64,000 nucleotides of DNA, from assembly GCA_003136575.1 (NCBI GenBank), contig PLEX01000097.1, forward strand, positions 109,683-173,682, read 5' to 3'. This document shows, piece by piece, positions 41,199 through 58,092 of the stretch (the first letter of the stretch is position 1; each line of letters begins with the position of its first letter). The stretch is from Bryobacterales bacterium. Its GTDB lineage: Bacteria; Acidobacteriota; Terriglobia; Bryobacterales; Bryobacteraceae. A program made the position numbers and the translations under genes. Below the pieces are notes generated by a model. The model did no database searches. It was not told where the DNA came from and worked only from the letters and a program-made list of their open reading frames with translations.

Positions 41199-41355
41199 GG
41201 ACCTGCGATGCTTCAAACCCAAGGCCTCGTTCGTCTCAACAAATAGCGCGCTGTGTTCGCGACGTTCGTCAAGTACAACGTGATGATGCCGGAATTCGGC
41301 GGAGATCCCCGGCAACGAAGAGGCTGTTGCGGCGATCAGGGCAAGACCTGAATAT

Positions 41356-42730
41356 TTACCTTTTTCCGGCTGGCGTCACGGTTTTCACGTCCGCCGCTTC
41401 CGCGACAGGCGGCTTTTGCGCGGCCTGCTTGTCCCTCAACTATTTCGCGTGCGCTTCCATCTTTCTCGCGTCCGCCAGCCGGCCCGCGGCGTGCAACATC
41501 ACAGCATACTCGTCCAGCGTCTCGACGATTTCCTGGTGATCGCCGCCGAGTCCCTTTTCGCCCAGCAGAATCGCGCGCTGAAAGTAGTCGTCTGCGCGCT
41601 TCCAGTCCTTTTGGGCCTCGTACAGTAACGCCAGGTTCGACAGGCTCTCGATGTCGCGGGTCTCGCGAATCGTCAGCCCTTTGCGGAAGAATGGCTCCGC
41701 CTCGTCGTACCGTTTCTGAGCGGCATAGAGCGAACCCAGATTGTCTAGCGCCTGCGCAACGAGAGGACTTGTCGGACCCTGGGTTGCCGTCCATAATCTG
41801 CAACGAACGCTGGAAAAGTGGCTCGGCTTCGATGTACTTGCTGTCGAAGAAATATGCCATCGCGAGATTCTCCAGCGCGGGAGCGACATCGGAGTGTCGC
41901 GCGCCCAGAACTTTTTCGCGAATGGCAAGCGACCGCTGAAACGCCGGCTCGGCGTCACTGTACATCTTTTGAGAACTGAAGAGCCTGCCCAGACGATCGA
42001 GAATTCCCGTTAGTCCGTAGCTTTCCGGTCCCAGGCTCTTTTCCGAGATCGCCAGGGCCTTTTCGAAATCCGCCTGCGCATCCTTCGGCGATTCAGCTCG
42101 CTCCTCGAGTACCCCCAGATTGACCCAGCTGGTCGCGACCTCGATGCGGTCCGGCCCCAGATGGCTCACGCGCGTGTCGAGCGCATGCCGGTAGGCCGCC
42201 CGCGCGTCGTCGTTCCGCTTCAACTCCATGTACGCGCTACCCAGTTTGTCGTAATCGTCCGAGACCCGGGGATCGTCTTCGCCAAGCTCCCTGTCGATCG
42301 AGAGAGCTCGTTCGAGAACCGGAACCGCGAGGATCGTTTGGCCGGCGGCCCTGTATGCGCCCGCGAGCCGCGCCAGATGAGGCGAAAGATCCGGAATGAC
42401 GCCGTTCGCGGCATTGGAACCCGTTCGTTGCAGTTGTTGGATCCGAGTTTCAAGCGTTTGGACCGCATTGGAGGCCATCGCGATGGCTTCATCGTGCCGG
42501 TTCATGAGGAGATCCAGATCGCACAACGCCGAATAGGCTTCAACGACGCGCATGGGTGAACGGTTCGGATCGGCTGCGGCATCCCCAAGCGCGAGGCGGA
42601 GCTGGTCGCCCGCTTCCGCGTATCTGCTCTGACGAAGCGCGGCTTGCCCCGCGTTGAGGTGGGTATCAAAGGCCGATGGCGATTGCCCAGGGAGCACAAC
42701 GGCGGCGACAATTCCGATTATGAGACGCAT
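41356..42730 (-). pseudogene. Exported tetratricopeptide-repeat protein, frameshifted and with an in-frame stop
   Basis: The protein begins with a signal peptide (MRLIIGIVAAVVLPGQ) and repeated TPR/kinesin-light-chain-like units such as YAEAGDQLRLALGDAA, DPRVSDDYDKLGSAYMELKR and HSDVAPALENLAMAYF. Near 41778 an extra G in GGG shifts the frame; the other frame continues PTSPLVAQALDNLGSLYAAQ to KMEAHAK. There a TAG replaces the expected Glu codon, and the same frame runs on LRDKQAAQKPPVAEAADV to a TAA at 41356. Two lesions make decay likely, although a protein ending at 41440 after frameshifting cannot be excluded. Confidence 0.72.
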
Positions 42731-42780: not shown

Positions 42781-44433
42781 CTAATTTTTTAGTTTTGGCG
42801 CGGTTCCCCCTCTACCGCGTTCCGCCGTGTAGTCGCCGAAGCTGCAGGATTCGGCCAGTTCCTGGAGCACATCTTCGCAATCCGGGCCTTCAAACCGGGC
42901 GTCCGCGAGGGCCCACTGCCGGTCTATGCGGTCTTCTCCGAATGTGTTGGCCCCGGGCCGGACGTGGATATAAAGCTGCGGTGCGTCAACGAGGGCGATG
43001 CGTTTTTCGCGCATGAGCCGCGCCACCACGGGGGTGCCTTCGCCGGAGCGCCTTGCGGGATAAGGCGGCAGCCCGCCATTCCGGCACAACGCTTCCTTCC
43101 CGCACCCTTCTTTCCGGCACAACATAGTGGACTCCCAAACCCGGCTCCGCGCGATGGCGATCCGACCCTCGTCCGGCCACCAGATCAGTTTGCGCAACAG
43201 GAACGACGCGGCGGTTTCAAGGCTTCGGATGGCGGCCATCTGGAGCTCAAGCCGGCGGAGGTGCGAGATATCGCCTTCATCCCAACGGGCGACGAACTTG
43301 CCCCTGGACTCCTGGACCGCGAGGTTCCGCAATTCGCCGAGGGTCAGGCCTTGCGGCTCCAGACGCACATACCTTATAGCGGGATCGGCAAGCGCGGCCA
43401 CGTGCCTCCCGAGGGCGTTGTCGCCGCTCTCATCGAGCACGACCAGTTCCCTGTCCCTGTAAGTCTGGCCGCAAAACGACCGTATGGAGGCAGCGGCAAG
43501 CCGGGCGCGATCGCGCGTGACCATCACGCAGGAAATCAGAGGTCCCGAGACCATATCGGACACGTTGCCGAGCACGTCCGAGCGAAGCGCGCCCCGCATC
43601 ACAATACGGCGATTGCGGAGAAGATGAACCGGGCACTTTTCGAGAGGCGGGAATCGTGCCGATTGCCGAACCCAGGAACCCGCCCAGTGATGAACCGCCC
43701 AGGCGTGTGCGCCGGCGCGTTCCCGGAACGCGGGGTCCAGCCAGAATCCGCATCGGGCCTCGTTTTTCGTGATGGGGTTGAGAAGCGGCGCATCCAGCAC
43801 GGAAATGAAAGCGCGGTCCGGATAACTTTCCCAGGCCCGCGTCAGCAGGACGGAGCCGGTAACGTCCAGCGGTCTGCGGCCGTTCCGGTCATTCATCAGT
43901 TTACGGAAGACATGCTCCCAGAAAGCGTGACCGGGAATTGAGGCCATCAGCGCGTTGCTGACCGGTCCGCTCGAACCGGAAGCCCGGGCCTCGGCGGTTT
44001 CCGCATGCTCGGAAGGCTCCAGCCCCATTACGAGCTGACGCCCCTCGAGGATAGCGTAAAAAGGCCTCAGGCATTCATAATCGAGGTCGGCGTAGACGCC
44101 GCCGTAGCGGTGCAGAATGAAATAGCGGACGGCGTCGGCCCGCATGATGGGTTCGGGGTACGCGTCATAAGTGCCGAGGAACCACGGATAGCAGGTTGCG
44201 ATGAGCTCGCGCCCGGTGATATCGGTCCAGAACATCGACTCCCAGTGCGGATTGTGAATCTTCCAGCTTTCCCGCCAGACGCGCCATTGTTCCGGAATAT
44301 CGGGCGAGCGCCAGATCTGATGCAAAATTCGCGGAATCCGAACCGCATTTCCGCCAGGAACCGGTTCGGCAGGGGGTTCAGGAACGTGGCGCGCCCGAGG
44401 CCAGGGCGTCGGAATTTCGGAATCTGCCGGCAC
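42781..44433 (-). CDS. Bifunctional glycosyltransferase: GT32-like domain plus GT2-like domain
   Basis: A 550-residue cytoplasmic protein. Residues 30-150 show the DXD-type sugar-transferase region IPRILHQIWRSPDIPEQW, then MRADAVRYFILHRYGGVYADLD, the Gly_transf_sug (GT32) pattern with its metal-binding DLD. From about residue 300 a second domain begins at LISCVMVTRDRARLAAASIR, the start of GT2/GT-A enzymes. Its later acidic motif reads RWDEGDISH rather than the common DDD, so activity of domain 2 is uncertain. It probably builds a polysaccharide or glycolipid. It is divergent from the TPR-barrel gene. Confidence 0.82.
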   Translation of the reverse strand: MPADSEIPTPWPRARHVPEPPAEPVPGGNAVRIPRILHQIWRSPDIPEQWRVWRESWKIHNPHWESMFWTDITGRELIATCYPWFLGTYDAYPEPIMRADAVRYFILHRYGGVYADLDYECLRPFYAILEGRQLVMGLEPSEHAETAEARASGSSGPVSNALMASIPGHAFWEHVFRKLMNDRNGRRPLDVTGSVLLTRAWESYPDRAFISVLDAPLLNPITKNEARCGFWLDPAFRERAGAHAWAVHHWAGSWVRQSARFPPLEKCPVHLLRNRRIVMRGALRSDVLGNVSDMVSGPLISCVMVTRDRARLAAASIRSFCGQTYRDRELVVLDESGDNALGRHVAALADPAIRYVRLEPQGLTLGELRNLAVQESRGKFVARWDEGDISHLRRLELQMAAIRSLETAASFLLRKLIWWPDEGRIAIARSRVWESTMLCRKEGCGKEALCRNGGLPPYPARRSGEGTPVVARLMREKRIALVDAPQLYIHVRPGANTFGEDRIDRQWALADARFEGPDCEDVLQELAESCSFGDYTAERGRGGTAPKLKN

Positions 44434-44627
44434 GGATCTCAGATACTATGTACCACGCGGGGATGGCCCGCACCGGAATTCAGTCGTGAGGCTTGTCTCC
44501 GGTGACATTGACCGCGTTCAGCTCCCCATGGGTTCCGAACGGCGCAACGGCCGGCGACTGCAACGCGCGGACCGGCATTAATTTTGAGAATTGCTCCATC
44601 CGCTCCCACATATCAATAAGGGGAGCT

Positions 44628-46679
44628 ATGCGGCAGGCGGCGTTATTGTTTTTGTGCACGGCGACGGTTTTGGCGCAACTCCAGACGGCTGCGCCGGCGC
44701 AGAACCCGGCCGGCGATGCGGCCTACGCGTCCCTCACGAGGGCGTTCGACGCCCTGCGCAGCCGCGATTACGACCTGGCGATTCTATCCTTCCGGAATGC
44801 CGCCGCGCTTTCGCCGCGCCGCGCCGATATCCGCAAGAACCTTGCCTACACGTTGATGAAAACGGGCGAAACCGATGCCGCCCGCGACGAGTTCGGTGAG
44901 GCCATGCGTCTCGATCCCGCCGACTTCCACGTCGCGTTGGAATATGCGTTCCTCTGTTTCGAGGCGAAAGACGATGCATCGGCGCGCAAGGCCGAAGCAC
45001 GCCGCATTTTCGCGTTGGTTCGGGATACGGGCGATGCTGAATCCAGTGCGACGGCCGCAACCGCGTTCCGCAATATCGACGATCCGCTGAAAGAGGGAAT
45101 CGAGCGCCGGCAGCGGGCGCTTGCCACCTCCGCGCCGACGTTCGGGGCTTACTTCGAACTCGCACAACTGGCCGAACAGCGCGACGAAGCGGAGCTTGCC
45201 GCATCGAATTACAAGGCGGCGTTCCGGATGTTGCCGGAGCGGAAGTCCGTATTGCTCGAACTGGCGCGAGTGGAAAAAACGCGCGGAAACAGCGAAGGCA
45301 CGATGGCAGCGTTGATCGCGGCGTCGCGCGGTCCGGAGCCGAGGACCGCCGAACTCGCGCGCGAAAGGCTGCCGGAGCGTTACCCGTATGTTTACGAATT
45401 TCGCGAGGCACTGAAGCTCGACCCTTCGAACACGGCACTCCACAAGGAACTTGCGTACCTGTTGCTGACTATGTCGCAGAACCGACAGGCGGCGCGAGGG
45501 GATGCCGAGAAGGAATTTGCCGCGTTGGTGGGCGAGTGTTCGGACGATTATGTTCTTATCGCGCAGCTTGGGCTGCTCTATCTCGAAGACCAGCGAACGG
45601 ACGTGGCCATGCCACTGCTGAATCGCGTGCTGGAACATGGCGACGAAGAAACGGCTAACCGCGTACGCATCGCGCTCCACGTGCCGTCGGTCCTCATCGA
45701 ACGCAAAGACGCGGCCGGCCAGGAGACCCCCGATGCGAGAGAGCTTGCGGAGCGGAGTTATCGGGCGGGCTTCCTGAAGGACGCTCTCCGTTACTTTACG
45801 CAGGCGCGAGAGGAGAATCCCTCGGACTCTTCGCTCGCTCTGAAACTCGGGTGGACCAACAATCTGCTGCGTGACGATGCCACCGCCCTCGGCTGGTTCG
45901 ATGTTGCGCGCCAAAGTAGCGATCCCGCCATCGCAGCCGAGGCCAATCGCGCATGGCGGAATCTGCGGCCGGAGCGCCGACTGTTCCGTACGACAGTTTG
46001 GCTCTATCCTTTGTTCTCTTCCCGTTGGGGCGATGTTTTCGGTTACGGCCAGGCGAAGATCGAACTCCGCACAAAACGGCTGCCGCTGCATCCCTACGCC
46101 TCGCTTCGGCTGGCGGGTGACGTTCGCAGAGAGACGAGCGGTCCCGCTCCGCAGGCTTTATCGGAAAGCGCACTCATCACGGCGGTGGGCGTCGGGACGA
46201 ATGTATGGCATGGCGCCAACGCCTGGTTTGAGGGAGGAGTCGCCACCAGCTATCTGAACGGTAACCACTGGAGCGACTATCGCGGCGGCCTCTCATTCAC
46301 CCGTACTCAGGGCGCCGCGCTCGGCGGAGAGCGAACCGGCTTGTTTCTCGAAACCACGGGCGACAGCGTTTACATCAGCCATTTCGATGAGGATCTGTTG
46401 AACTACGCGCAAAGCCGATTCGGTTATACGAGATCGCTCGCCCGATCGCGCGCGCAGGCGTTCTGGAATCAGAATTTCACGGTGGACGCGAAGAAACAGT
46501 ACTGGGCGAATTTTATGGAAACCGGCCCCGGCTTTCGCATTCACCCGCCGGGCATGCCGCCGCCTGTGTGGATCAATGTAAGTGCGCTGCGCGGTGTCTA
46601 TCTGCGCAACGAAGGGAACCCGGGACGGTCGAATTTTTACGACTTGCGAGTGGGGATCTGGTATGCGTTCACGAGATAA
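44628..46679 (+). CDS. TPR outer-membrane protein with C-terminal beta-barrel (NfrA/PgaA/BcsC-like)
   Basis: A 683-residue exported protein with a signal peptide (MRQAALLFLCTATVLAQ). Residues 30-470 are TPR helices, for example RDYDLAILSFRNAAALSPRR, DIRKNLAYTLMKTGETDAAR and LKDALRYFTQAREENPS. From about 480 beta-strand-rich sequence (TTVWLYPLFSSRWGDVFGYG to FYDLRVGIWYAFTR) has the alternating pattern and terminal aromatic of an outer-membrane barrel, like the NfrA C-terminal domain. Such proteins export polysaccharides or serve as surface receptors. ATG 44628 is chosen over the longer frame because GGGGAG and the signal peptide begin there. The next gene overlaps by 17 bases. Confidence 0.78.
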   Translation: MRQAALLFLCTATVLAQLQTAAPAQNPAGDAAYASLTRAFDALRSRDYDLAILSFRNAAALSPRRADIRKNLAYTLMKTGETDAARDEFGEAMRLDPADFHVALEYAFLCFEAKDDASARKAEARRIFALVRDTGDAESSATAATAFRNIDDPLKEGIERRQRALATSAPTFGAYFELAQLAEQRDEAELAASNYKAAFRMLPERKSVLLELARVEKTRGNSEGTMAALIAASRGPEPRTAELARERLPERYPYVYEFREALKLDPSNTALHKELAYLLLTMSQNRQAARGDAEKEFAALVGECSDDYVLIAQLGLLYLEDQRTDVAMPLLNRVLEHGDEETANRVRIALHVPSVLIERKDAAGQETPDARELAERSYRAGFLKDALRYFTQAREENPSDSSLALKLGWTNNLLRDDATALGWFDVARQSSDPAIAAEANRAWRNLRPERRLFRTTVWLYPLFSSRWGDVFGYGQAKIELRTKRLPLHPYASLRLAGDVRRETSGPAPQALSESALITAVGVGTNVWHGANAWFEGGVATSYLNGNHWSDYRGGLSFTRTQGAALGGERTGLFLETTGDSVYISHFDEDLLNYAQSRFGYTRSLARSRAQAFWNQNFTVDAKKQYWANFMETGPGFRIHPPGMPPPVWINVSALRGVYLRNEGNPGRSNFYDLRVGIWYAFTR

Positions 46680-48726
46680 GGCGCGCCTTGCGGACAACGG
46701 CAGGCGAAACCGCTTGCCCCACACTGTTGCGCGCGCCCTGGCGGGGCTGTTTTTGCTCACCCCAGGCGGTTTTGCCGGAACCTTTGCCGTGCCCGCGGGA
46801 GATCTCTCCTCCTGGCCCGCCATCCTGGCTTCGGCCGGCCATGCGCTTTCCACTGACGCAACGGCCGATATCTACGTCGCGCCTCTGAATGCGCCCGCAT
46901 CGGCCGACTGGCGCGCAAAAGTAAGGAACGGCGCCGCTGTCGTCCTCGAAGGATCGTCGCCGCTCGCCGCCAGCTTCGGATTTACGCCGGGCAGCACGTC
47001 CGTGCCGACCATACACATCGTCGACGAACACAACTCTTCGCTGCCGGTGGTCTGGAGCAAGGCTATCGACCTTCCGCGCTACGAGGTTCCGGCGTCCGCG
47101 CATGTCTTCGCAAAGGAACGCTGGACCGGCGCGCCCGTCGAGGCGGGCTACAAGCTCGGCGAGGGAGCCGTTTTCTGGGTTGCCACCGATCCGGGCGCCA
47201 ACGGCTACGAACGCTTTCCGTACCTCATGCAGGCGCTGGCGGATCTCGGCTTTGGGCCGTCGTTCCGGGCTTCCCGGCTGTGGGCGTTTTTCGACTACTC
47301 TTACCGCACGCGCGCCGATCCCGACTATCTCGCGGAACGCTGGCGCGCGGCCGGCATCGGCGCGCTGCATGCGGCGTCGTGGCATTTCTACGACGCCGAC
47401 CCCGCGCGCGACGAATATCTGCGGCAACTGATCGAAGCTTGCCACAGGCACGGCATCCTGGTGTACGCGTGGATCGAGTTGCCGCACGTCAGCGAGCAGT
47501 TCTGGAAAGCCCATCCGGAATGGCGCGAAAAAACCGCCCTGTTGCAGGACGCTCAGCTCGATTGGCGGAAACTGATGAATCTGCAGAATCCGGATTGCGC
47601 TGCGGCGGTGCGGGCGGGGCTAAGGTCGATGATGGAACGCTTCGATTGGGACGGCGCCAATCTCGCCGAGCTGTATTTCGAATCGCTCGAGGGGGCGGCC
47701 AATCCGGCCCGTTTCACGCCGATGAACGACGGCGTTCGCGCCGGTTTCCGCACACAATCCGGGTGGGACCCGCTGGAACTCTGGAGACAGCGCACCGACG
47801 CGGCGTCGCTCAACCAGTTTCTGGCATACCGCGCGGGGCTCGCCCGGCGCATGCAGGAAGACTGGCTCGGTTTTGCCGAAACGCTTCGCTCCTTCAGGCC
47901 GGATCTCGACATTGTCCTGACACACGTGGACGACCGCTTCGACACCGGGATGAGGGACGCTATCGGCGCGGACGCGGCACGGGTCCTCCCCCTGCTCGGT
48001 ACGCACTCCTTCTCGTTCCTGATCGAAGACCCGGCGACGGTGTGGAATCTGGGACCGCAACGCTATCGGGAGATCGCGAAGCGATATGCGGCGCTGACTC
48101 CCCACGCGGACAAGCTTGCGATCGACATCAATATTGTGGACCGGTACCAGGACGTTTATCCGACCAAACAGCAGACCGGCACGGAGCTGTTCGAACTGGT
48201 GCACATGGCGGCCTCAGCGTTTTCGCGCGTTGCGTTGTACTTCGAGAACAGCATTCCGAAGCCCGATATGCCGCTGCTGGCCGCCGCGTCGGCAGTGGTG
48301 AACAGCTACGCAGTAGTGAACTACGCAAACGATAAACGGCGAATTCGGATCGATTCCGCGACCGACGTGGAAGTGGCATGGACGGCCGGCGGCGCGCTGG
48401 TCGATGGCAAACCGTGGCCTTTGGTGACGAAAGACGCGGTTCGGCTTCCGGCCGGCGCGCACGTGGTTGATGCCGCTCCGAAGTGCGATTTCATCTCGGT
48501 CTACGATCTGAACGCGACGCTTCGAAGCGCATCGGTCTATGGCGATCGGGTGCAGTTCCGGTATTCCAGCGACAGCCGGGCGATCGCGCGGTTCGACCGA
48601 AGGCCCTCCGCGATGGAGGTGGATGGCGAGGCTTTCCCGGCGTCATGCGTGAAATCGGACGGGATCGATTCGGCTGGTTGCCCGGTTCTGCTGCCGCGCG
48701 GCGACCACGATGTCACGGTACGCTGA
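46663..48726 (+). CDS. Exported TIM-barrel glycoside-hydrolase-like protein
   Basis: A 687-residue protein whose N-terminus has an unusually Arg/Asn-rich stretch (DNGRRNRLPHT) before a hydrophobic signal region. The centre contains WAFFDYSYRTRADPDYLAERW, ACHRHGILVYAWIELPHVSE, FDWDGANLAELYFESLEGA and HADKLAIDINIVDRYQD, typical of a (beta/alpha)8 barrel of the GHL10/DUF4015-like kind, with carboxylates in DGANLAE as candidates for catalysis. The C-terminal part is beta-rich. In polysaccharide loci such proteins trim the polymer. The start ATG 46663 lies inside the end of the TPR-barrel gene, indicating translational coupling. A REP-like palindrome lies within codons 13-19. Confidence 0.68.
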   Translation: MRSRDKARLADNGRRNRLPHTVARALAGLFLLTPGGFAGTFAVPAGDLSSWPAILASAGHALSTDATADIYVAPLNAPASADWRAKVRNGAAVVLEGSSPLAASFGFTPGSTSVPTIHIVDEHNSSLPVVWSKAIDLPRYEVPASAHVFAKERWTGAPVEAGYKLGEGAVFWVATDPGANGYERFPYLMQALADLGFGPSFRASRLWAFFDYSYRTRADPDYLAERWRAAGIGALHAASWHFYDADPARDEYLRQLIEACHRHGILVYAWIELPHVSEQFWKAHPEWREKTALLQDAQLDWRKLMNLQNPDCAAAVRAGLRSMMERFDWDGANLAELYFESLEGAANPARFTPMNDGVRAGFRTQSGWDPLELWRQRTDAASLNQFLAYRAGLARRMQEDWLGFAETLRSFRPDLDIVLTHVDDRFDTGMRDAIGADAARVLPLLGTHSFSFLIEDPATVWNLGPQRYREIAKRYAALTPHADKLAIDINIVDRYQDVYPTKQQTGTELFELVHMAASAFSRVALYFENSIPKPDMPLLAAASAVVNSYAVVNYANDKRRIRIDSATDVEVAWTAGGALVDGKPWPLVTKDAVRLPAGAHVVDAAPKCDFISVYDLNATLRSASVYGDRVQFRYSSDSRAIARFDRRPSAMEVDGEAFPASCVKSDGIDSAGCPVLLPRGDHDVTVR
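46699..46718. repeat. REP-like palindrome, copy inside a coding region
   Basis: GGCAGGCG-AAAC-CGCTTGCC, followed by CCACA. It matches the copy at 60702-60721 in 24 of 25 bases including the CCACA tail. Here it encodes the atypical Arg/Asn-rich residues near the start of the hydrolase-like protein. Confidence 0.75.
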
Positions 48727-48761
48727 CACGCCCCTGCCTGACGATACGCTGAGAAACGGCT

Positions 48762-50453
48762 TCAGAACCGCAGGCTGTTTTCCCGCGGATTCCAGGCGAC
48801 TCCGAACGTAAAGCGAAGATCGCGTTGCAGTAAAGGGCTGTTGGAAATGTCGTAGCGCCGGTAGTCGACGCGGAATGTGGAGATAACGCCACGGCGGATC
48901 TCCCGGGATAGGCCAAAGCCCGCCGTTTCGCCTTTGTAGAATCCCAGGCCGCTCTGCGCCAAAGACTCAAGAGAGTAGTAGGAAGCGCTGAAGTTGGCGG
49001 AAATGCGTTTGCCCAGCCGCATCGAGTATCCGCCGGTAATCGTTTCCTGCGACGAGGTTAACTGGACGCCGTTGCCCGGCGACTCCCCCTTGGCGAACGA
49101 CAGGGAGGCGGTATGCTCCCTGCCGAAATCCCGCACCAGTTCGGCCGAAACGTCGGAAATCAGTCGCAAAGTGTAGGCGTTTATGACTGTCGAACCCTGC
49201 CCGAGAATGGCTGCCAGTTCGGGGGGCAGCGCGATCGTCTCGTAACTCCGGGTCGAAATCCGAGCCACTCCGCCGCGCGTCCGCAACTGCGTCCTGCGAT
49301 CCAGCGCGTAAGAATAGATCAGGCCCGCGCCATTGGAGTCCGATTGGGCTATGTTGTGCGAAAACCGGTAGCCCGTGAACGAGTAATACGCGCCCACGGT
49401 TGCCTTTCTCGTCCAGCGGTAATTCACGTCCGCCATCCCCTGGTACCCAGTGGTGCCGGCCAGGCCCGCGCCTGTTCGCGCTATCAGAAAGTAGCTCCCC
49501 GATACCTCGTAGGAAAGACGCGTCGACTTTTGATAACTCATGCTGACGGTCGAATTCGACTGGCGGACCGTATTGTCCAGGATCTGCACAAACGGGCTGG
49601 TCGCCAGATTGATATTCGCCACCGAACTGCCGGGTTCGAGGCCGGTATTTTCCAGCGAGTAATTCTGGGACAGCGATTGGAGGCTTTCGACGAGATGGAA
49701 AGCGAGCCGCCGCGAAATAACGTGAGTGTAATCCAGATTGAGAGTATTGTTCAGGCCGCTCAGACGCGTGGCCGTGTAATCCGAGTAGTTTCCGGAGTAG
49801 ATAATCCCCAGTTGATCGAACTTCCACGTGTGGCGGCCGTTCAGACTCCAGGTTGGCGAGCGCGACTGAGAGACGACCGACGGATACACGCCATTGGAAA
49901 TCGCCTCACCCGGCACCTGGCCAATATCCAATCCCCAGGTAAATCCGAGCGTTACCTTCCACTTGAGCTGCTGCGAATCCATCGGCCGCGCCAGCGTATA
50001 GGCGCGAGTGAGGACGGCGGGTCCGCTGTAATCCGAGTCGCCCGCCAAAGCGTCGGCGGCATCCCCCTGAGACGAACCTGCCGCCGAGGTGGTCTTCATG
50101 GAGTTCGACGCAGCCACAGATCCTGGCAGGGGCTGCTCGGTGTCGCTCGGAGTCAGACTGGCGGCTGCGGCGGGGGCTTGTTCGCGATCGGTCAGTCGAA
50201 TTGGATCCGGCACCGTAGGATCGACGGCTGGTTTCAGCGGATCGTACTTGTCGATTTCCTTCTCGCGCAGTTCGGCGGCGGTATAAGGTAAACCGGTAGC
50301 CGGGTTTGTCGCGGCAGGCGCGGTTTGGGGACTCGGCGCCGCAGGTTGTGCCGGGTCGCCCGCGGATTGCGCCGGCGTCGGCTGCTCCTGTGCCTGTAGC
50401 GCAATTCCGGAAATCAGCAGGCATACCGGCAGGAAATAAATAGCGCGTGCCAC
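48762..50453 (-). CDS. Outer-membrane beta-barrel protein, function unknown
   Basis: This 563-residue protein has a signal peptide (MARAIYFLPVCLLISGIALQA), a Pro/Ala/Gln-rich periplasmic segment to about residue 130, and then a long series of alternating beta-strands from SGPAVLTRAYTLARP to the C-terminus, ending in SLRF as barrel proteins often do. Visible strand features include TWSLNGRHTWKF and FRVDYRRYDIS. No enzyme motif is present. It is convergent with the hydrolase-like gene, so it may or may not belong to the same system. Confidence 0.7.
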   Translation of the reverse strand: MARAIYFLPVCLLISGIALQAQEQPTPAQSAGDPAQPAAPSPQTAPAATNPATGLPYTAAELREKEIDKYDPLKPAVDPTVPDPIRLTDREQAPAAAASLTPSDTEQPLPGSVAASNSMKTTSAAGSSQGDAADALAGDSDYSGPAVLTRAYTLARPMDSQQLKWKVTLGFTWGLDIGQVPGEAISNGVYPSVVSQSRSPTWSLNGRHTWKFDQLGIIYSGNYSDYTATRLSGLNNTLNLDYTHVISRRLAFHLVESLQSLSQNYSLENTGLEPGSSVANINLATSPFVQILDNTVRQSNSTVSMSYQKSTRLSYEVSGSYFLIARTGAGLAGTTGYQGMADVNYRWTRKATVGAYYSFTGYRFSHNIAQSDSNGAGLIYSYALDRRTQLRTRGGVARISTRSYETIALPPELAAILGQGSTVINAYTLRLISDVSAELVRDFGREHTASLSFAKGESPGNGVQLTSSQETITGGYSMRLGKRISANFSASYYSLESLAQSGLGFYKGETAGFGLSREIRRGVISTFRVDYRRYDISNSPLLQRDLRFTFGVAWNPRENSLRF

Positions 50454-50562: not shown

Positions 50563-53211
50563 TTACGGGTATGTCAGCCCGGTGGTGGTGGTGAAGAAAG
50601 TCGCGGGATGGCTCTCATTGTTGAAGCTGGCGGTAACCCAGGAGGGCGAAAACACTACGCCCTTTGCCGAGATTCGGATCTCGTCCATGGTGTTGGTCGA
50701 CATCTGGGTCGGCCCGGCCCGGCCATTGATCGCCGCTATCGCCGCATTCTGGATCGACGCGGTCAGGGTGTTGTTGAGCGTGGTCAGCGGCTGGCTCACT
50801 CCGTCGACATAGATCTGCATTCCCGCAACCGAACTGGTCCCGGAATAGGTAACCACGACGTAGTGCCACTGCCCCACGGTGACCGAGGGAGTCGCGGCGC
50901 TTGCTCCCCCGCCCGTAGTTCCGCCATACAGGATCAATTCAAAGGCCGGCGCCGAGGAGCCCGCGTTCTGCATCAGTAGCCATCCGGGAGTTGGAGGACC
51001 GGGGAACTTCGACAATAATGTTCCCGAGGAATTGGACGCTATCCTGAACCAGCCCGACAGCGAGAACGAATCGGTCCGGTCAAAGTTGAAGTTGCCGGGG
51101 CTAGGCAGACTGGCCCACGTATCCCCTTCAAAATTAATGCTCCCGCCAATCTCACCCGGTTGTTGCTGCGCGGCGGCCACGGATCCGTTCATCGTGGCGT
51201 TATTGCCGTTCGCAGTCGAGTCGTTCAGCTGCGGGGCGGTTCCGGCGGGGTTTTCCTTCAAGTGATAGACAGCCATGAAATTGCTGTTCCACGTCGCCGG
51301 GGGCGTTGTCTGCAGGGTCGTCACCGAAGGCGAACCGTACCACGCGTAAATGACCGTTCCGTTGTTCAGATTGGGCACATTCACCCAGACATTTACAGCT
51401 CCCGTGGCAGAGGCCCAGTTCTCGAACTCCCAGCTCAGTGGCACTATGCCTGCCGAGTCCGAAGTGAAAATCAAATCGCATGGAACCGCCGTTGCATTGT
51501 TACCCACGGTCTGGGCGCAGGTATTGGAGATTCTGCCGCCGTTGGCGGTCGTGGCGAGGTCCGGAAACGTTCCGGAAATGAGGGCGGGAAAACTGGTCTG
51601 GGCGCTGGGTACCTGGCCGGCGGCGACTGTGAAAGTGGCCTGATACATGTAGCCATTGGGCCAAGTCGGCGGAGGCGCTGCGACTCCCGTTCCGCTCAAG
51701 GCCACCGATTGAGGACTGCCCGCGCCGTTATCCGTAATGGTGACCGCAGCCGATCTTGCATTCGCCGCTGTCGGCGTGAACGTCACGCTGATTGTGCATG
51801 TGGCGTTGACGGCAACGGTCGTAGGGCAGTTGTTCGTTTGCGCGAAATCGCCGGGATTCGTGCCGCCCAGCGCTATGCCAGTGATCGCAAGCGGATTCGG
51901 ACCGGCGTTGGTGAGTGTGATCGCCTGAGCCGCGCTCGTAGTTCCAACCGTCTGATTAGCGAAGCTGACCGATGTTGGCGAAAGCGTAACGGTCGATGGC
52001 ACCGCCGTTCCTGTTCCACTCAGAGCCACCGACTGGGGACTGCCCGCGCCGTTATCGGTAAACATGACGGCGGCCGACCGCGCGTTCGCCGCTGTCGGCG
52101 TAAACGTCACACTGATCGTGCAAGTGCCGTTCACCGCAACCGTCGCCGGGCAGTTGTTCGTCTGCGCGAAATCGCCGGGATTCGTGCCGCCCAGCGCTAT
52201 GCCGGTGATCGCAAGCGGATTCGGACCGGCGTTGGTGAGTGTGATCGCCTGAGCCGCGCTCGTAGTCCCAACCGTCTGGTTTGCGAAGCTGACGGATGTT
52301 GGCGAGAGCGTAACGGTCGACGGCACCGCAGTACCTGTTCCACTCAGAGCCACCGACTGAGGACTGCCCGCGCCATTGTCAGTAATCGTGACCGCCGCCG
52401 ATCTTGCATTCGCCGCCGTCGGCGTGAACGTCACGCTGATCGCGCATGTGCCGTTCACCGCAACGGTCGCCGGGCAGTTGTTCGTTTGCGCGAAATCGCC
52501 AGGATTCGTGCCGCCCAGCGCTATGCCGGTGATCGCCAGCGGATTCGGACCGGCGTTGGTCAGCGTGATCGTCTGAGCCGCGCTCGTAGTCCCAACCGTC
52601 TGGTTTGCGAAGCTGACGGATGTTGGCGAGAGCGTCACCGCCGATGCCACCACGCTCAGCAGTTGAAACGACGATGCGCACGTACCCGAAATGCCTACTA
52701 CGTTAAAGCATGTATTGGAAGCCGAAACGTGGCCGTAGGTACTGTCCCAGGCGTCAACGCCCGATCCGTCGTTGATGTCCCAGTAGACGGGATTGCCCGC
52801 CGCGCTGATCCCGCCCGAGAGGGTCAGGTAATAGGTCCCCGCTGGAAGCGTCACGCCGGGGATTGAAAAGCCGACCGTATTCACATCGAAGCCGTCCGCG
52901 TTGGAAAGATCGAAAGTACTCGTGGCACTGGCCACGCCCGAACCCAGGGAAGCGCCGAAGGGCGTTGTCCCGATCGACCAGGCGACGGCTGTAACAGAGT
53001 CGCCTGTGCTCACCCAAGCCCCGAACTGGACCTGCCCCACAGTCCCACCCGCAGTCAAAGTGAACGAATCGGCAGCAGAATAGCTACCGCTTATCTGGAA
53101 TGCGCTGATCTGCCCGTTGACAGGGAAGTTGCTGAAGAGTGGCTGGCCGTCCGCGGCGGAAGCCAGAATAACTAAAAAAAGAGCGGACGGAACAGAGACA
53201 CGAGCTTGCAT
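50563..53211 (-). CDS. Large secreted protein: choice-of-anchor-D repeats, DUF2341 and LamG domains
   Basis: An 882-residue protein. A signal peptide (MQARVSVPSALFLVILASAADG) is followed by a beta-rich domain to residue 190, then three tandem 108-residue Ig-like (ASH/choice-of-anchor-D) repeats with VTLSPTSVSFANQTVGTTSA and GGTNPGDFAQTNNC. A DUF2341-like domain (YMYQATFTVAAGQVPSAQTS) and a concanavalin/LamG domain (SFSLSGWFRIASNSSGTLLS, VGQWHYVVVTYSG) complete it. Domains of this kind bind carbohydrate or other surfaces, suggesting adhesion or attachment to plant or microbial polymers. ATG 53211 sets the signal peptide. It is divergent from the molybdenum operon. Confidence 0.83.
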   Translation of the reverse strand: MQARVSVPSALFLVILASAADGQPLFSNFPVNGQISAFQISGSYSAADSFTLTAGGTVGQVQFGAWVSTGDSVTAVAWSIGTTPFGASLGSGVASATSTFDLSNADGFDVNTVGFSIPGVTLPAGTYYLTLSGGISAAGNPVYWDINDGSGVDAWDSTYGHVSASNTCFNVVGISGTCASSFQLLSVVASAVTLSPTSVSFANQTVGTTSAAQTITLTNAGPNPLAITGIALGGTNPGDFAQTNNCPATVAVNGTCAISVTFTPTAANARSAAVTITDNGAGSPQSVALSGTGTAVPSTVTLSPTSVSFANQTVGTTSAAQAITLTNAGPNPLAITGIALGGTNPGDFAQTNNCPATVAVNGTCTISVTFTPTAANARSAAVMFTDNGAGSPQSVALSGTGTAVPSTVTLSPTSVSFANQTVGTTSAAQAITLTNAGPNPLAITGIALGGTNPGDFAQTNNCPTTVAVNATCTISVTFTPTAANARSAAVTITDNGAGSPQSVALSGTGVAAPPPTWPNGYMYQATFTVAAGQVPSAQTSFPALISGTFPDLATTANGGRISNTCAQTVGNNATAVPCDLIFTSDSAGIVPLSWEFENWASATGAVNVWVNVPNLNNGTVIYAWYGSPSVTTLQTTPPATWNSNFMAVYHLKENPAGTAPQLNDSTANGNNATMNGSVAAAQQQPGEIGGSINFEGDTWASLPSPGNFNFDRTDSFSLSGWFRIASNSSGTLLSKFPGPPTPGWLLMQNAGSSAPAFELILYGGTTGGGASAATPSVTVGQWHYVVVTYSGTSSVAGMQIYVDGVSQPLTTLNNTLTASIQNAAIAAINGRAGPTQMSTNTMDEIRISAKGVVFSPSWVTASFNNESHPATFFTTTTGLTYP
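51667..52638 (-). repeat. Three tandem 324-bp repeats inside the large secreted protein gene
   Basis: The units are 51667-51990, 51991-52314 and 52315-52638, each coding 108 residues. The DNA of the three is nearly identical apart from scattered third-position changes and a few amino-acid swaps (ATV/TTV, TCA/TCT). Near-identity at the DNA level implies recent duplication or gene conversion. Confidence 0.9.
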
Positions 53212-53419: not shown

Positions 53420-53863
53420 ATGGCAGCCACATTTACACTCAACGTAAACGGCCAGAATCACACCGTCACGGTGAACAATCCCGCGATGCCGCTATTGTGG
53501 GTGATCCGCGACCTGATCGGCCTCACCGGTACAAAGTATGGTTGCGGCCAGAACAGATGCGGGGCCTGTTACGTGCTGGTCGACAATGTACCCACGAATA
53601 CATGCCTTGAGGCCGCCGAATCTTTCGTGGGGAAGAACATTGTCACGATTGAAGGCCTGTCCCCGAATTCGAGCCATCCGGCTCAACTCGCCTGGATCGC
53701 CAATCAGGTTCCCCAATGCGGGTACTGTCAGTCCGGCCAGTTGATATCGACCGCGGGTGCGATGCTGGCGGGATATCACGGCGCCGCCATCGCCCCGCAG
53801 ATTCAAAACGTTTGCATCTGCGGCACATATCCGCGGATTCTGCAGGCCGTGGAGACGCTCTAG
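53420..53863 (+). CDS. Small [2Fe-2S] subunit of an isoquinoline 1-oxidoreductase-like molybdenum hydroxylase
   Basis: A 147-residue iron-sulfur protein. Cys42, 47, 50 and 62 in the plant-ferredoxin-type motif GCGQNRCGAC bind the first cluster; Cys100, 103, 132 and 134 (QCGYCQSGQ and VCICGTYPRI) bind the second. The usual NxCRCGTY has Ile in place of Arg. The subunit transfers electrons from the molybdenum site to the acceptor. It is followed after 33 bases by the large subunit, as in iorAB-type enzymes, which lack a FAD subunit. Confidence 0.9.
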   Translation: MAATFTLNVNGQNHTVTVNNPAMPLLWVIRDLIGLTGTKYGCGQNRCGACYVLVDNVPTNTCLEAAESFVGKNIVTIEGLSPNSSHPAQLAWIANQVPQCGYCQSGQLISTAGAMLAGYHGAAIAPQIQNVCICGTYPRILQAVETL

Positions 53864-53896
53864 GGTAACGCTCTTTCGCAAGGGAGTTTATAGCCG

Positions 53897-56212
53897 ATGT
53901 CTGAAACCGAATCTTCCCGCATTGGCGAAAAGGGATCGCAAAAACCCGGCCGGCGCGAGTTCCTGGCTGTCGTAGGTTCGGGCCTGACGCTGGGCTTCTT
54001 CTTCGACGTCGTTCCGCGCGTGGCGGAAGCGCAGCCGGCCGGATTGGCCGGTCCTCCTGCAAACACGCAGGTGAATACCTGGCTGAACATTTCGAGCACC
54101 GGCGCCATTACGCTCACCGTCGGATCTTCCGAAATGGGCCAGGGTTCGTTTTCCGGTCTGGCCCAGATCCTCTCGGAGGACCTGATGGTAAATTACGCCT
54201 CGATTCAGACGGTTCAGGGCGTGCCCGCAACGGGTTTGCCTGCCATCGGCAATTCCATCGGAACATTCGGCAGCAGCGTCACGCAGAGCAACTACTGGAA
54301 CATGCGTTTAGCCGGTGCGGCGGCTCGGGAAATGCTGGTGCAGGCCGCGATGAATATCATCGGCGATCAGACCCGCGCCAACTACACTGTTTCAAACGGC
54401 GTCATCACCTACACGCCTACGAACACGAACATTTCATACGGACTGGTCGCGTCCGCCGCGGCGAGATTGCCGGTGCCGGCCAACCCGCCGCTCATTCCCG
54501 ACAGCCAGTTTCGATACATAGGCACGACGGTGAGCCGTGTTGACATCCCCGCCAAAGTGAACGGAAGCGCCGTCTATGGTCTGGATATCCGTTTGCCGAA
54601 CATGCTCTATGCTGTCGTCATTCACAGTCCCGTTTTCGGCGGAACTCTGAACGGACCGCTTCCCGGCCTGAGTCCCGGCGTGACGGCCTGGGTACCTCTG
54701 CAGGTCGTAGCGGGAACCGGCCGCGGCACGGAAGCCACGGGAATGGTCAATGCCGTCGCAGCAGTGGGTACCAATACCTGGGACGTGTGGCAGGCAACGC
54801 TCAATGCGACGATCGCCTGGTCTACTCCCGCGAACGCATCCAGCCTGAACGATGCAAACTTCTCCAACGAAGCGAACAGCGCGTTTAATACGAACACTCC
54901 ATATTCCGCGGGCGGACCGAACATCCCGCCAACGCTATATACGGTTGAAGGCAATCTGGCGGCGGCAAACGCGGCTATCGCCGGAGCGCCGAAATCAATC
55001 GGGCCTCTCTACACTCTGCCCTACGTCCCCCATAACACGCTCGAACCGCTGAGTTGCACCGTGAACTACGTGCCCGGCGTCTCGTGCGACGTGTATGTGC
55101 CCACTCAGTTCGCGTCGAGTGTGCTGGCGCTCGTCAACCAGATGACCGGATTGCCTCTGAACCAGATCCGCGTTCATACGACCTATCTGGGTGGTGGACT
55201 CGGTCGCAAGATAGAAGTGGACTACGTAAGCCAGGCGCTGCAGGTGGCCATGGCTATCGGCCAGCCGGTGATGCTCCTGTGGCCAAGGCCGCAGAATTTC
55301 CTGCGCGACCAGTTCCGGCCCATGGCGAAGGTGCATATCAAGGCCGGCCTCGATAATAACGGCAACGTCCTGGGCTGGTCCTGCATCAACGTTTCGCCTT
55401 CCATACTCGCCCAGCGAGGATACCCGGTTGGAGCCGTCGGCGACAGCCAGGCAACTGAAGGAACGACCGCTCTTCCATATGACCTGGGCGCTCTCTCGAC
55501 CCAATGGGTGTCGCATCCCTCGCCCATTCCGGTTGGATTCTGGCGGTCGGTCGGCATGTCGATCAATACGTTTGCGGTCGAGTCGGCGATTGACGAACTT
55601 GCGGTGCTGGCCGGAAAGGATCCATACCAGTTCCGGCTTGGTCTTTTGACCAACCCGAGATGGATCGCGGTGCTCGAGGCAGTTGCCGTCTTGTCCAACT
55701 GGACGGCTGGTCCCCCCGCCGGTCACTTCTACGGAATCGCCATCTGCGCCTATGCCAACAGCATCGTGGCGGAGGTGGTGGATGTTTCGCTGAATCCTGG
55801 CAACGATCCCGACGGACAGCCTGCGCTCTTCAACGTGAATAACGTCTATATCGCCCTCGATTGTTACCTCTCCGTCAACCCCGGCCAGATCCAGACGCAA
55901 TTGACCGGAGGTATGGTGCACGGCCTCAATGCAGCTCTCTACGGTCGACAGGACTTCGTCAACGGCGTTCCGCAATGGTCGAACTTTTTGCAGAACCGCG
56001 TGATCCGCATGAACCAGATGCCTCAGGTGGCGTGGACGCTGATTCCGAACCCGGCACAATCCAGCCAGTCTGTGCCGATTGGTGGAGTCGGCGAGCTTGG
56101 CGTTCCCGCGCTGGCTCCCGCTCTGGCAAACGCTTACTTCAAAGCCAGCGGTAACCGTATTCGCACACTGCCATTTTTCCCGAACGCCACCATGAGCGGA
56201 ATCACGAATTAA
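53897..56212 (+). CDS. Molybdopterin-binding large subunit (IorB-like), Tat-exported
   Basis: A 771-residue catalytic subunit of the xanthine oxidase superfamily. A twin-arginine signal (GRREFLAVVGSGLTLGFF) lies at residues 18-36. Landmarks include TLTVGSSEMGQGSFSGLAQI, KVNGSAVYGLDIRLPNMLYA, YLGGGLGRKIEVDYV and the C-terminal GVGELGVPALAPALANA, which contains the catalytic Glu. The enzyme hydroxylates N-heterocyclic or aldehyde substrates at the molybdenum centre in the periplasm; the substrate is unknown. The small subunit lacks its own signal and is probably carried along. Translation starts at ATG 53897. Confidence 0.9.
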   Translation: MSETESSRIGEKGSQKPGRREFLAVVGSGLTLGFFFDVVPRVAEAQPAGLAGPPANTQVNTWLNISSTGAITLTVGSSEMGQGSFSGLAQILSEDLMVNYASIQTVQGVPATGLPAIGNSIGTFGSSVTQSNYWNMRLAGAAAREMLVQAAMNIIGDQTRANYTVSNGVITYTPTNTNISYGLVASAAARLPVPANPPLIPDSQFRYIGTTVSRVDIPAKVNGSAVYGLDIRLPNMLYAVVIHSPVFGGTLNGPLPGLSPGVTAWVPLQVVAGTGRGTEATGMVNAVAAVGTNTWDVWQATLNATIAWSTPANASSLNDANFSNEANSAFNTNTPYSAGGPNIPPTLYTVEGNLAAANAAIAGAPKSIGPLYTLPYVPHNTLEPLSCTVNYVPGVSCDVYVPTQFASSVLALVNQMTGLPLNQIRVHTTYLGGGLGRKIEVDYVSQALQVAMAIGQPVMLLWPRPQNFLRDQFRPMAKVHIKAGLDNNGNVLGWSCINVSPSILAQRGYPVGAVGDSQATEGTTALPYDLGALSTQWVSHPSPIPVGFWRSVGMSINTFAVESAIDELAVLAGKDPYQFRLGLLTNPRWIAVLEAVAVLSNWTAGPPAGHFYGIAICAYANSIVAEVVDVSLNPGNDPDGQPALFNVNNVYIALDCYLSVNPGQIQTQLTGGMVHGLNAALYGRQDFVNGVPQWSNFLQNRVIRMNQMPQVAWTLIPNPAQSSQSVPIGGVGELGVPALAPALANAYFKASGNRIRTLPFFPNATMSGITN

Positions 56213-56231
56213 GTTATATGACAGGGTTGTT

Positions 56232-57500
56232 ATGACGGAGCTGAGCGCGATCCTGGAAGCCTGGCGCGGTCTGAATGCCGGGGATCGCGACGCCGTGCTG
56301 GCGACGGTAGTGCATGTGACCGGCTCAGCGTACCGCCGCCCGGGGGCGCGCATGCTCATAGTTCCGGGGGGACGACGCTATGGCGGTGTGAGCGGCGGCT
56401 GCCTTGAAGGCGAGATTGCCAGAAAAGCCTGGTGGTTCACCGAGTCGGGAGCGCCCGTAGTACGCGTTTACGACACCACTTCAGAAGACGACGCAGCCTG
56501 GGAATTCGGGCTTGGCTGCAACGGCGTGGTTCACGTGCTGCTGGAACGCGCCAGTTCGCCCGGCGCTTCCGGCTTGCTCGATTTTCTGCGCGCCCGGCTG
56601 ACTGCGAGAAAGTGCGCTGTAGTGGCTACTGTAATCCGTACCGGAGCAAGCGCCACGGTGGGGGTGGGCGACAGGCTCCTGGTAGCGGAAGCGCCGCCGG
56701 ACGCGGCACCAGACATCGGAGGAACCACCGATTCAGACGGGTTCGGCCGCGGAACTCGCGCGTGTTCCTCAAGAGGCGAGTCCCCGCTTTCGGCGGGAAG
56801 TCTTTCCGGTTCGGGCGTCGAATCCCGCTTACTTCCCCACATCGCCGCCGCTTTTCGCGAGAAGAAGAGCCGCCTCGCGCACATCGGCGAAATCGACGTG
56901 TTCGTGGAGTGGATCGCTCCGCCGCCGTCGCTGGTCGTTCTCGGCGCCGGACACGACGCGATACCGCTGGTGAACTTCGCCGCTCAACTCGGCTGGAACG
57001 TCACCGTGGCCGACGGCCGCTCCGCATACGCGCGGCCCGAGCGATTCCCGGGCGCGGACCGTGTGGTCGTCATGCCGCCAGGCGATTTTCTGCGCGGCGT
57101 CCGCATCGATTCGGAGACGTTGGTGGTGATGATGACCCACAACTATCCGCTGGACTCGCTGCTGTTGCCCCGCATTCTTCCACTGCGCCCGCGATATCTC
57201 GGATTGCTGGGTCCGAGGGCCAGGGCCGAACGGCTCTTCTCGGAACTGCGCCTGCCCGAGCCGGCCTTTGTCCACGCTCCCGCCGGTCTGGATGCGGGCT
57301 GCGACAGCCCGGAAGCGATCGCCTTGTCGATAGTGGCCGAGATCCAAGCCGAAATGAATTCCCGCGAAGGAGGCAAGCTGAAATACCGCGACGAACCCAT
57401 CCACACCGCCGCTTATGAAGTGGGTGTGGCTAGACAGCCCATGAACGTGGACGCGGTGCGGCCTTCGTGGTGTGAGGTTGCGGAAAGAACCCATGTCTGA
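56232..57500 (+). CDS. XdhC-family molybdenum-cofactor chaperone
   Basis: A 422-residue protein of two domains. Residues 10-120 hold the XdhC/CoxI domain (VTGSAYRRPGARMLI, GGVSGGCLEGEIARKA); the C-terminal Rossmann-like domain starts at LVVLGAGHDAIPLVNFAAQLG and includes VVMMTHNYPLD and YLGLLGPRARAERL. XdhC binds sulfurated molybdenum cofactor and inserts it into xanthine-oxidase-like enzymes. The gene follows the large subunit by 19 bases and overlaps the next by eight, so the operon is coupled. Confidence 0.88.
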   Translation: MTELSAILEAWRGLNAGDRDAVLATVVHVTGSAYRRPGARMLIVPGGRRYGGVSGGCLEGEIARKAWWFTESGAPVVRVYDTTSEDDAAWEFGLGCNGVVHVLLERASSPGASGLLDFLRARLTARKCAVVATVIRTGASATVGVGDRLLVAEAPPDAAPDIGGTTDSDGFGRGTRACSSRGESPLSAGSLSGSGVESRLLPHIAAAFREKKSRLAHIGEIDVFVEWIAPPPSLVVLGAGHDAIPLVNFAAQLGWNVTVADGRSAYARPERFPGADRVVVMPPGDFLRGVRIDSETLVVMMTHNYPLDSLLLPRILPLRPRYLGLLGPRARAERLFSELRLPEPAFVHAPAGLDAGCDSPEAIALSIVAEIQAEMNSREGGKLKYRDEPIHTAAYEVGVARQPMNVDAVRPSWCEVAERTHV

Positions 57501-58092
57501 GGCCGGGCCGGCTGGATTCGCCGTGATCCTCCTGGCGGCAGGCGGTTCCACGCGGATGGGCGCGGTCAAGCAATTACTCGATTTTCGCGGCAAGCCGCTG
57601 TTGCGGCACGCGGCGGAATCGGCGCAGGCTTCAGGATGCGAGCGCGTAATCGCCGTTCTGGGCGCCCACGAGCGGGAAGCCCGCGCCGTTCTCGACGGTC
57701 TCGCGGTCGAAATCGTCGTCAACGATCGCTGGCCGGAAGGGATGGGCACGTCAATTCAGTCCGGCCTGCGCGCGCTGGAGAATGGCGGCATCGGTGGCGC
57801 GATTCTGGCACTGGCCGATCAGCCGTTCATATCGCCGGAGTTTCTGGCAGGGCTTGTCGCGCGGCACCGCGAAAGCGGCAAGCCGATCGTGGCATCGCGA
57901 TATTCCGGCACGGCGGGAGTTCCCGTGTTCTTCGCGCGCGAAGCGTTCCCTCTGCTGATGGCGCTGAAGCCCGACCAGGGCTGCAAGGGTGTGATCCTCG
58001 CGAACTCCTTGGAGGCGCTCCTCGTGGACTGCCCCGAGGCCGCCATCGATATCGACACGCGGGAAGACTATGCGAAGGCAATTGGCTTATAG
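57493..58092 (+). CDS. MobA/MocA-like nucleotidyltransferase (molybdopterin cytidylyltransferase)
   Basis: This 199-residue enzyme starts with the NTP-binding motif ILLAAGGSTRMGAVKQLLDF and has LALADQPFISPEFL, a DQP variant of the metal-binding site, and GTAGVPVFFARE. In operons like this it attaches CMP to molybdopterin, giving the dinucleotide cofactor used by xanthine-oxidase-family enzymes. Whether it uses CTP or GTP is not certain from sequence. ATG 57493 has GGAAAG upstream and overlaps the XdhC stop; a GTG at 57472 is less likely. Confidence 0.86.
   Translation: MSEAGPAGFAVILLAAGGSTRMGAVKQLLDFRGKPLLRHAAESAQASGCERVIAVLGAHEREARAVLDGLAVEIVVNDRWPEGMGTSIQSGLRALENGGIGGAILALADQPFISPEFLAGLVARHRESGKPIVASRYSGTAGVPVFFAREAFPLLMALKPDQGCKGVILANSLEALLVDCPEAAIDIDTREDYAKAIGL

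Follow-up and report, generated by a model that had tools for sequence, protein, structure and literature searches.

An overlapping TPR-barrel and TIM-barrel gene pair in Bryobacterales and its probable place in a dispersed Nfr-type exopolysaccharide system

The locus studied here raises the question of whether four neighbouring genes make up an envelope polysaccharide system of their own, or whether only some of them belong together and work with partners encoded elsewhere. The genes lie in a 64,000-nucleotide (nt) stretch of contig PLEX01000097.1 of a Bryobacterales bacterium (GCA_003136575.1), which we call the window, and they encode a two-domain glycosyltransferase, a protein with tetratricopeptide repeats (TPR) and a predicted barrel, a TIM-barrel hydrolase-like protein whose gene overlaps the preceding one, and a second possible outer-membrane barrel. 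A first-pass annotation had grouped all four as a candidate undescribed system that follows the logic of a pore and a trimming hydrolase. We found instead that the TPR-barrel and TIM genes are kept together in related genomes and that the other two genes are not kept with them. It is probable, at roughly 0.7, that this pair is the export-and-trimming half of a dispersed, synthase-dependent exopolysaccharide system of the Nfr/NGR type, in which pore and hydrolase families of its own replace NfrA_C and YbcH. The window assembly (G000) consists of 6.6 Mb in 242 contigs and is ~83% complete by estimate, and the relatives named below are Bryobacterales/Bryobacteraceae and other Acidobacteriota records.

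All four open reading frames (ORFs) were located, and their domains were as first described, including both domains of the glycosyltransferase; only the second barrel lacked family support, since family scans (Pfam included) gave no match for the 48762-50453 protein. The features are as follows.

42781..44433, - strand: two-domain glycosyltransferase, GT32-like plus GT2 (Pfam Gly_transf_sug PF04488, 5.7e-18; Glycos_transf_2 PF00535, 3.5e-6)
44628..46679, + strand: TPR plus predicted 12-stranded beta-barrel protein, putatively NfrA-like by role (ORF open from 44493; Pfam TPR, AlphaFold2 model)
44724..45977, + strand: TPR helices, model residues 33-450 (Pfam TPR matches and model m6d62fb2c187f)
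45984..46673, + strand: predicted C-terminal barrel, 12 strands, model residues 453-682 (AlphaFold2 model)
46663..46679, + strand: 17-nt overlap of the TPR-barrel and TIM genes, with an in-frame ATG
46663..48726, + strand: predicted exported TIM-barrel hydrolase-like protein (ORF open from 46582)
47269..48297, + strand: predicted TIM barrel, model residues 203-545, structurally nearest the PgaB GH153 domain
47668..47670, + strand: codon of Glu336 in the motif WDGANLAE, which the motif register would put at the PgaB catalytic Asp
48762..50453, - strand: possible outer-membrane barrel protein, by sequence appearance only

A conserved pair and its sporadic neighbours

Relatives of the TIM protein were collected from GTDB genome contigs (322 found), and the best 80 loci were compared, with genes called by a simple codon-usage caller built for this analysis. 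In 73 of the 80 loci the TPR-barrel gene immediately precedes the TIM gene and shares its strand. Five of the seven loci without an adjacent pair are cut by contig ends (L099, L110, L123, L124, and L151), although in L124 a TPR-barrel fragment is in place, and in the other two (L100 and L113) the genes are separated as assembled. The window ORFs as opened overlap by 98 nt, which the conserved start reduces to 17 nt (46663-46679), and an in-frame ATG at exactly this overlap was found in 72 of 74 pairs, the window counted in (the exceptions are L112 and L116). Because this ATG is kept at the same overlap, translational coupling of the pair is suggested.

The genes on either side of the pair gave a different result. 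The flanks compared were up to 10 kb long, reaching 9 kb or more on each side in only 31 of the 80 loci, and neither the GT32-GT2 gene nor the second barrel had a relative within these flanks in any of the 80 loci by blastp and phmmer at E 1e-6, including loci with a 72-73% identical hydrolase. We read both genes as sporadic chance neighbours outside the conserved unit; the gene-order check put forward by the first-pass annotation thus held for the pair and failed for its flanks, and the membership it had given to these two genes is not supported. Genes that do recur beside the pair, named by eye as parA/parB, mnmG/rsmG, acyl-CoA dehydrogenase, SurA-like, and DedA-like, are each present in at most 18 of the 80 loci and are read as background.

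For the TPR-barrel protein, the start at 44628 was picked by alignment with relatives and is followed by a stretch that looks by eye like a signal peptide. The AlphaFold2 model (pLDDT 90.8, pTM 0.50) places the TPR helices in residues 33-450 and the 12 strands in residues 453-682, and because of the pTM of 0.50, the placement of the two parts relative to each other is uncertain. Structure searches with the whole model as the query returned, among the matches listed, TPR and other helical-repeat proteins only.

The TIM protein was modelled by AlphaFold2 on 50 aligned sequences (pLDDT 87.1), and the model contains a TIM barrel. Pfam gave sub-threshold matches only, to GHL6 (8.8e-4, 19.9 bits against a cut-off of 35) and GHL10, and no deacetylase domain. 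With the model as the query, Foldseek ranked E. coli PgaB at the top, and PgaB hydrolase domains took ranks 1-5 in VIA-align (4p7l with Z 26.3, 319 aligned residues, and a root-mean-square deviation of 3.6; 6au1 with Z 25.5), followed by a bifidobacterial beta-galactosidase with Z 24.3. Since the Z values of PgaB and the beta-galactosidase are so close, the match of the predicted structure demonstrates the fold of the TIM protein and not its substrate. The spacing from a YAW motif (Trp) to a DG motif (Asp-Gly) is 60 residues in both the TIM protein and PgaB, and by this common register, that is by motif spacing only, Glu336 falls at the position of the PgaB catalytic Asp; the catalytic residue in the Bordetella PgaB enzyme is D474 (PMC5933820). 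Position 336 is Glu in 50 of 50 aligned TIM sequences, and these sequences show no variation at any of the ten acidic TIM-barrel positions checked, which include Asp211 and Glu336. The TIM family is a candidate new glycoside hydrolase family.

NfrB and WecB homologues in the genomes that carry the pair

The first synthase query, a PgaC-like GT2 from locus L181, found only distant GT2 proteins in the window genome. NfrB was reached by way of the barrel homologue of genome G262, in which the barrel gene overlaps by 4 nt the gene directly downstream, encoding a 1114-residue NfrB-WecB fusion. This fusion protein was then searched in 61 relatives at E 1e-20; 42 of them had the NfrB half and 43 had the WecB half (halves counted by hand, with a query start <230 for NfrB, fragments included, and >570 for WecB). 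At L217 (10582-13926), where a 1114-residue NfrB-WecB fusion overlaps a TPR-barrel homologue, an MshEN-like stretch can be seen by eye between the halves, and the fusion gave no Pfam MshEN match.

In the window genome, the NfrB homologue is encoded on contig C107 (640 amino acids as called; phmmer against E. coli NfrB, 1.5e-80). It has a GT2 domain (PF13641, 1.5e-42), a C-terminal MshEN domain (PF05157, 3.9e-9), and TED and QxxRW motifs; GT2 plus MshEN is the layout described for E. coli NfrB (PMC8669469). A WecB-type epimerase is encoded at G000:C118:61256-62341 and matches the WecB of L176, which itself exceeds the TIGR00236 cut-off, at 8.1e-106 by phmmer. A synthase homologue and its likely supply enzyme, which had been taken to be absent, are thus encoded elsewhere in the same genome.

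A link between the barrel family and NfrB was also found outside the window's family. A barrel-only profile of 36 sequences matched 6 of 297 genomes of the phylum, five confidently and one marginally (G086, E 0.003), and NfrB was not found in G086. In two barrel-matched genomes outside the family, G262 and G351, the barrel gene directly precedes a GT2 gene; in G351 it ends 27 nt ahead of the NfrB homologue as called, and E. coli NfrB matches the proteins of G262 and G351 at 1.1e-108 and 1.7e-103 by phmmer. NfrB was present in 13 of the 297 genomes, and all five confident barrel genomes are among those 13 (p 7e-8; 0.001 without the window's family).

Furthermore, the TIM gene (searched at E 1e-3) and NfrB co-occur. 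Among the 61 relatives, 40 have both, one has TIM only (G027), two have NfrB only (G021 and G034), and 18 have neither (Fisher p 3e-12), and a WecB-type gene is present in 40 of 41 TIM-positive relatives versus 3 of 20 TIM-negative ones. In the order, both genes were found in 124 of 150 sampled genomes, with TIM only in six (G027, G425, G432, G435, G439, and G453), NfrB only in three (G366, G399, and G441), and neither in 17 (Fisher p 9e-15). Three NfrB-negative genomes of this sample were taken to be G054-G056, which gave no match in the search of the 61 relatives, and in G456 a long fusion protein gives the best TIM match, although the genome has a pair-type fragment as well. The 18 genomes of family f3 include three with both genes, 15 with neither, and none discordant, and its genus g25 is split alike for both genes (G049 has both; G048 and G050 have neither).

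Parts of the pair also recur in other polymer loci. Other Acidobacteriota classes carry the TIM domain at the C-terminal end of proteins of 1209-1659 amino acids, and so do G001 and G037 in additional copies; the shortest of these proteins is cut by a contig end. DUF2334 was found by Pfam in all three fusions scanned (L176, L179, and L181), and the remaining six match L176 at E 2e-242 or better. In six of the nine fusion loci the contig extends past the downstream end of the gene, and these have a PgaC-like GT2 at most three genes away in six of six cases and WecB in five of six. The small barrel of L175, L176, L178, and L179 is homologous to one located immediately 3' of NfrB in G238 and G316 (1.6e-39 and 1.9e-37), and a relative of the DUF2334-bearing N-terminal half lies directly 5' of NfrB in G328; in G312 the distance between the two is three genes. 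Therefore, TIM, DUF2334, GT2, and barrel parts circulate among WecB-linked polymer loci, which supports an N-acetylhexosamine polymer as the probable substrate. The pore and trimming-hydrolase logic of the first-pass annotation is thus retained, with the pair kept as a unit, a hydrolase structurally nearest PgaB, and distant DUF2334 fusions beside a PgaC-like GT2 and usually WecB. In our literature search, no paper was found that joins DUF2334 with exopolysaccharide. As side observations, loci L173, L175, L176, L178, L179, and L181 have DUF2334-TIM fusions close to a PgaC-like GT2, in most cases along with WecB and a small barrel, and L180 (4889-9817, - strand) encodes a 1643-residue protein matching the GHL6, GHL10, GH42, and GHL15 models.

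In the proposed Nfr/NGR-type system, the inner-membrane NfrB homologue on C107 would polymerise the sugar and would be switched by cyclic di-GMP (c-di-GMP) through MshEN. The WecB-type epimerase on C118 would supply uridine diphosphate N-acetylmannosamine (UDP-ManNAc), and the polymerised sugar is probably ManNAc; the feeding of NfrB with UDP-ManNAc by WecB was proposed for E. coli in 2021 (PMC8669469, PMC8669472). The TPR helix of the TPR-barrel protein might lead the chain across the periplasm, in the role of NfrA, and the 12-stranded barrel might pass it outward as a pore. The co-translated TIM protein could then bind the chain beside the TPR scaffold and trim or cut it, where E. coli has YbcH; likewise, PgaB acts on poly-N-acetylglucosamine (PNAG) in complex with PgaA (PMC9384988). 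What looked like an orphan pair would thereby be placed in a pathway that can be tested, for which a synthase can be named and both the sugar and the second-messenger switch are likely ones. Because NGR serves phages as a receptor in E. coli (PMC8669469, PMC8669472), a polymer of this type could serve soil phages in the same way.

Weighing the alternatives

Several results weigh against an Nfr/NGR-type role for the pair. The co-occurrence is confounded by phylogeny, and the Fisher p values treat non-independent genomes as independent; families f1 and f2 alone give 121 genomes with both genes, six with TIM only, three with NfrB only, and two with neither, a weak association (p 0.03), and 9 of the 150 genomes of the order are discordant. 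The window TPR-barrel protein and the rest of the genome gave no Pfam match to NfrA_C (PF13283), and the comparison of the barrel with an NfrA_C profile, built from two distinct rows, gave E 0.13, worse than the E 0.051 of a reversed control. E. coli NfrA gave a match over 15 columns (E 0.012), which was discounted because the two-row profile had scored worse than that control, and an A4-PgaA value of 0.0024 was not counted because the alignment begins in the TPR part. The TIM protein is not DUF4434/YbcH (PF14488), with no match in the window protein or the genome (DUF4434 is present in 2 of the 61 relatives). Only in structure does it resemble PgaB: an hhalign comparison with the single E. 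coli PgaB sequence was not significant, and neither this comparison nor the Pfam scan placed it in GH153. No significant sequence homology of the pair to PgaB, PgaA, NfrA_C, or YaiO was found.

The distance between the genes is a further difficulty. NfrB and WecB queries matched nothing in the flanks of the 80 pair loci. Of 20 NfrB loci read, only those of G003, G008, and G015 share a stretch with pair genes, which lie 10-14 kb off; these three belong to the same genus, and G008 has only the TPR-barrel gene of the pair on the contig. In single-contig genomes the pair and NfrB are far from each other (positions 1.97 and 3.81 Mb in G369, 3.90 and 0.88 Mb in G376, whichever of the two comes first), and in the window genome, the pair, the NfrB homologue, and the WecB-type gene are on separate contigs.

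This separation, together with the presence of other GT2 proteins in these genomes, favours the best-surviving alternative, in which the pair serves the polysaccharide of another, non-Nfr GT2 synthase and its link to NfrB reflects shared clade ancestry only. For instance, the window genome encodes another membrane GT2 on contig C132 (L199; 537 amino acids as called), GT2 matches of about this length are present in many relatives with and without the pair (a likeness by length, not orthology), and the nearest TIM homologues outside the pair family adjoin a PgaC-like GT2 and not NfrB. Within the flanks compared, none of the 80 pair loci was matched by an L199-type GT2 query, and only L145 and L167 were matched, weakly (E ~1e-8), by two other GT2 queries, one of them PgaC-like. 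However, the barrel family itself adjoins NfrB in G262 and G351, and the five confident barrel genomes all fall among the 13 genomes with NfrB, and we therefore regard a non-Nfr synthase as unlikely.

It is more improbable still that the pair does not export a polymer at all; the TIM protein would then be a factor for binding or remodelling in the periplasm, perhaps an inactive one, and the TPR-barrel protein would act in assembly or uptake. TPR-plus-barrel proteins include Slam-type assembly factors, the TPR-barrel protein has a weak sub-threshold Pfam match to TPR_Slam, and neither protein of the pair has a sequence-level family beyond TPR. In contrast, the ten acidic positions checked are invariant in the 50 sequences, PgaB is the best structural match of the TIM model, TIM domains are found again in loci that have GT2 and WecB, and barrel homologues adjoin NfrB. 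Finally, a genuine four-gene unit, with the GT32-GT2 protein as the glycosyltransferase of the system and the second barrel as its partner, was rejected as highly improbable, as the physical adjacency that favours it is found in the window only, neither flanking gene has relatives within the flanks compared in the 80 loci, and the GT32-GT2 gene lies on the opposite strand.

Other possible synthase-exporter arrangements and neighbouring genes were seen in passing. A YaiO-family barrel lies near a membrane GT2 in G015 (L201, 5981-6790 and 7710-9023, both - strand), with L204 of G022 alike by eye, and in G053 a GT2 gene is directly followed by that of an 831-residue TPR protein (L203, 4958-8696, - strand), another possible synthase-exporter pair. 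In the window, a TPR_12-type gene at 41336-42730 (- strand) has a last third that looks out of frame by eye and may be frameshifted or a pseudogene; the gene at 50563-53211 (- strand) is predicted to encode an exported protein that has three choice-of-anchor D domains besides a laminin-G/ConA-like one; and what appears by eye to be a molybdenum hydroxylase-type cluster (a small protein, a large subunit, an XdhC-like protein, and one more gene) is located at 53420-58092 (+ strand).

Comparison with known systems

The Nfr/NGR system of E. coli (nfrB-nfrA-ybcH and wecB) shares with the window genome an NfrB homologue that combines GT2 with MshEN, a WecB-type epimerase, and a TPR-barrel gene followed by a gene for a periplasmic protein, in the same order as nfrA-ybcH. 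A short gene overlap is also shared, that of nfrB and nfrA in E. coli being 14 nt (PMC8669469). In contrast to the single operon of E. coli, the synthase and export genes here are at separate loci, the window barrel is not detectably NfrA_C, and the periplasmic protein is a predicted PgaB-like TIM barrel and not DUF4434; YbcH was reported to be dispensable for N4 infection (PMC8669469). Strict membership thus fails on NfrA_C, DUF4434, and operon structure, and the match is one of role. The term "undescribed" holds in part: the synthase belongs to a described system, whereas pore and hydrolase are of families other than those of NfrA and YbcH. The section of PMC8669469 that surveys NfrB homologues (2021) places them chiefly in the gamma- and betaproteobacteria, with no mention of Acidobacteria, and our literature search found no paper linking NfrB with Acidobacteria.

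The PgaA-PgaB machinery for PNAG resembles the pair in combining a TPR-barrel protein with a hydrolase, PgaB being the best structural match of the TIM model (Z 26), with the 60-residue spacing in common and Glu336 placed, by that spacing only, at the register of the catalytic Asp, and the DUF2334-TIM fusions found elsewhere resemble its deacetylase-plus-hydrolase layout. It differs in that the window protein has no deacetylase domain, has Glu for Asp, and has no significant sequence similarity, and no PgaC or PgaD is encoded beside the pair. The window barrel is predicted to have 12 strands, while the PgaA barrel has 16.

A third comparison is with the Acidobacteriota loci that combine DUF2334-TIM, GT2, WecB, and a small barrel (L175, L176, L178, and L179; in L173 no small barrel was found). 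In these five the TIM domain is fused to DUF2334, a PgaC-like GT2 replaces NfrB, and the small barrel has no TPR, whereas the hydrolase half is homologous to the window protein (whole-protein profile E 7e-131 to 7e-98). A broader picture can be offered tentatively, and we hold it to be somewhat less likely than its opposite: Bryobacterales may make a WecB-dependent, c-di-GMP-controlled NfrB polymer with a new TPR/12-strand pore family and a new PgaB-fold hydrolase family with Glu for the catalytic Asp, and Acidobacteriota may have swapped such modules (NfrB or PgaC-like GT2, WecB, DUF2334, TIM hydrolase, and three pore types) between loci as interchangeable parts.

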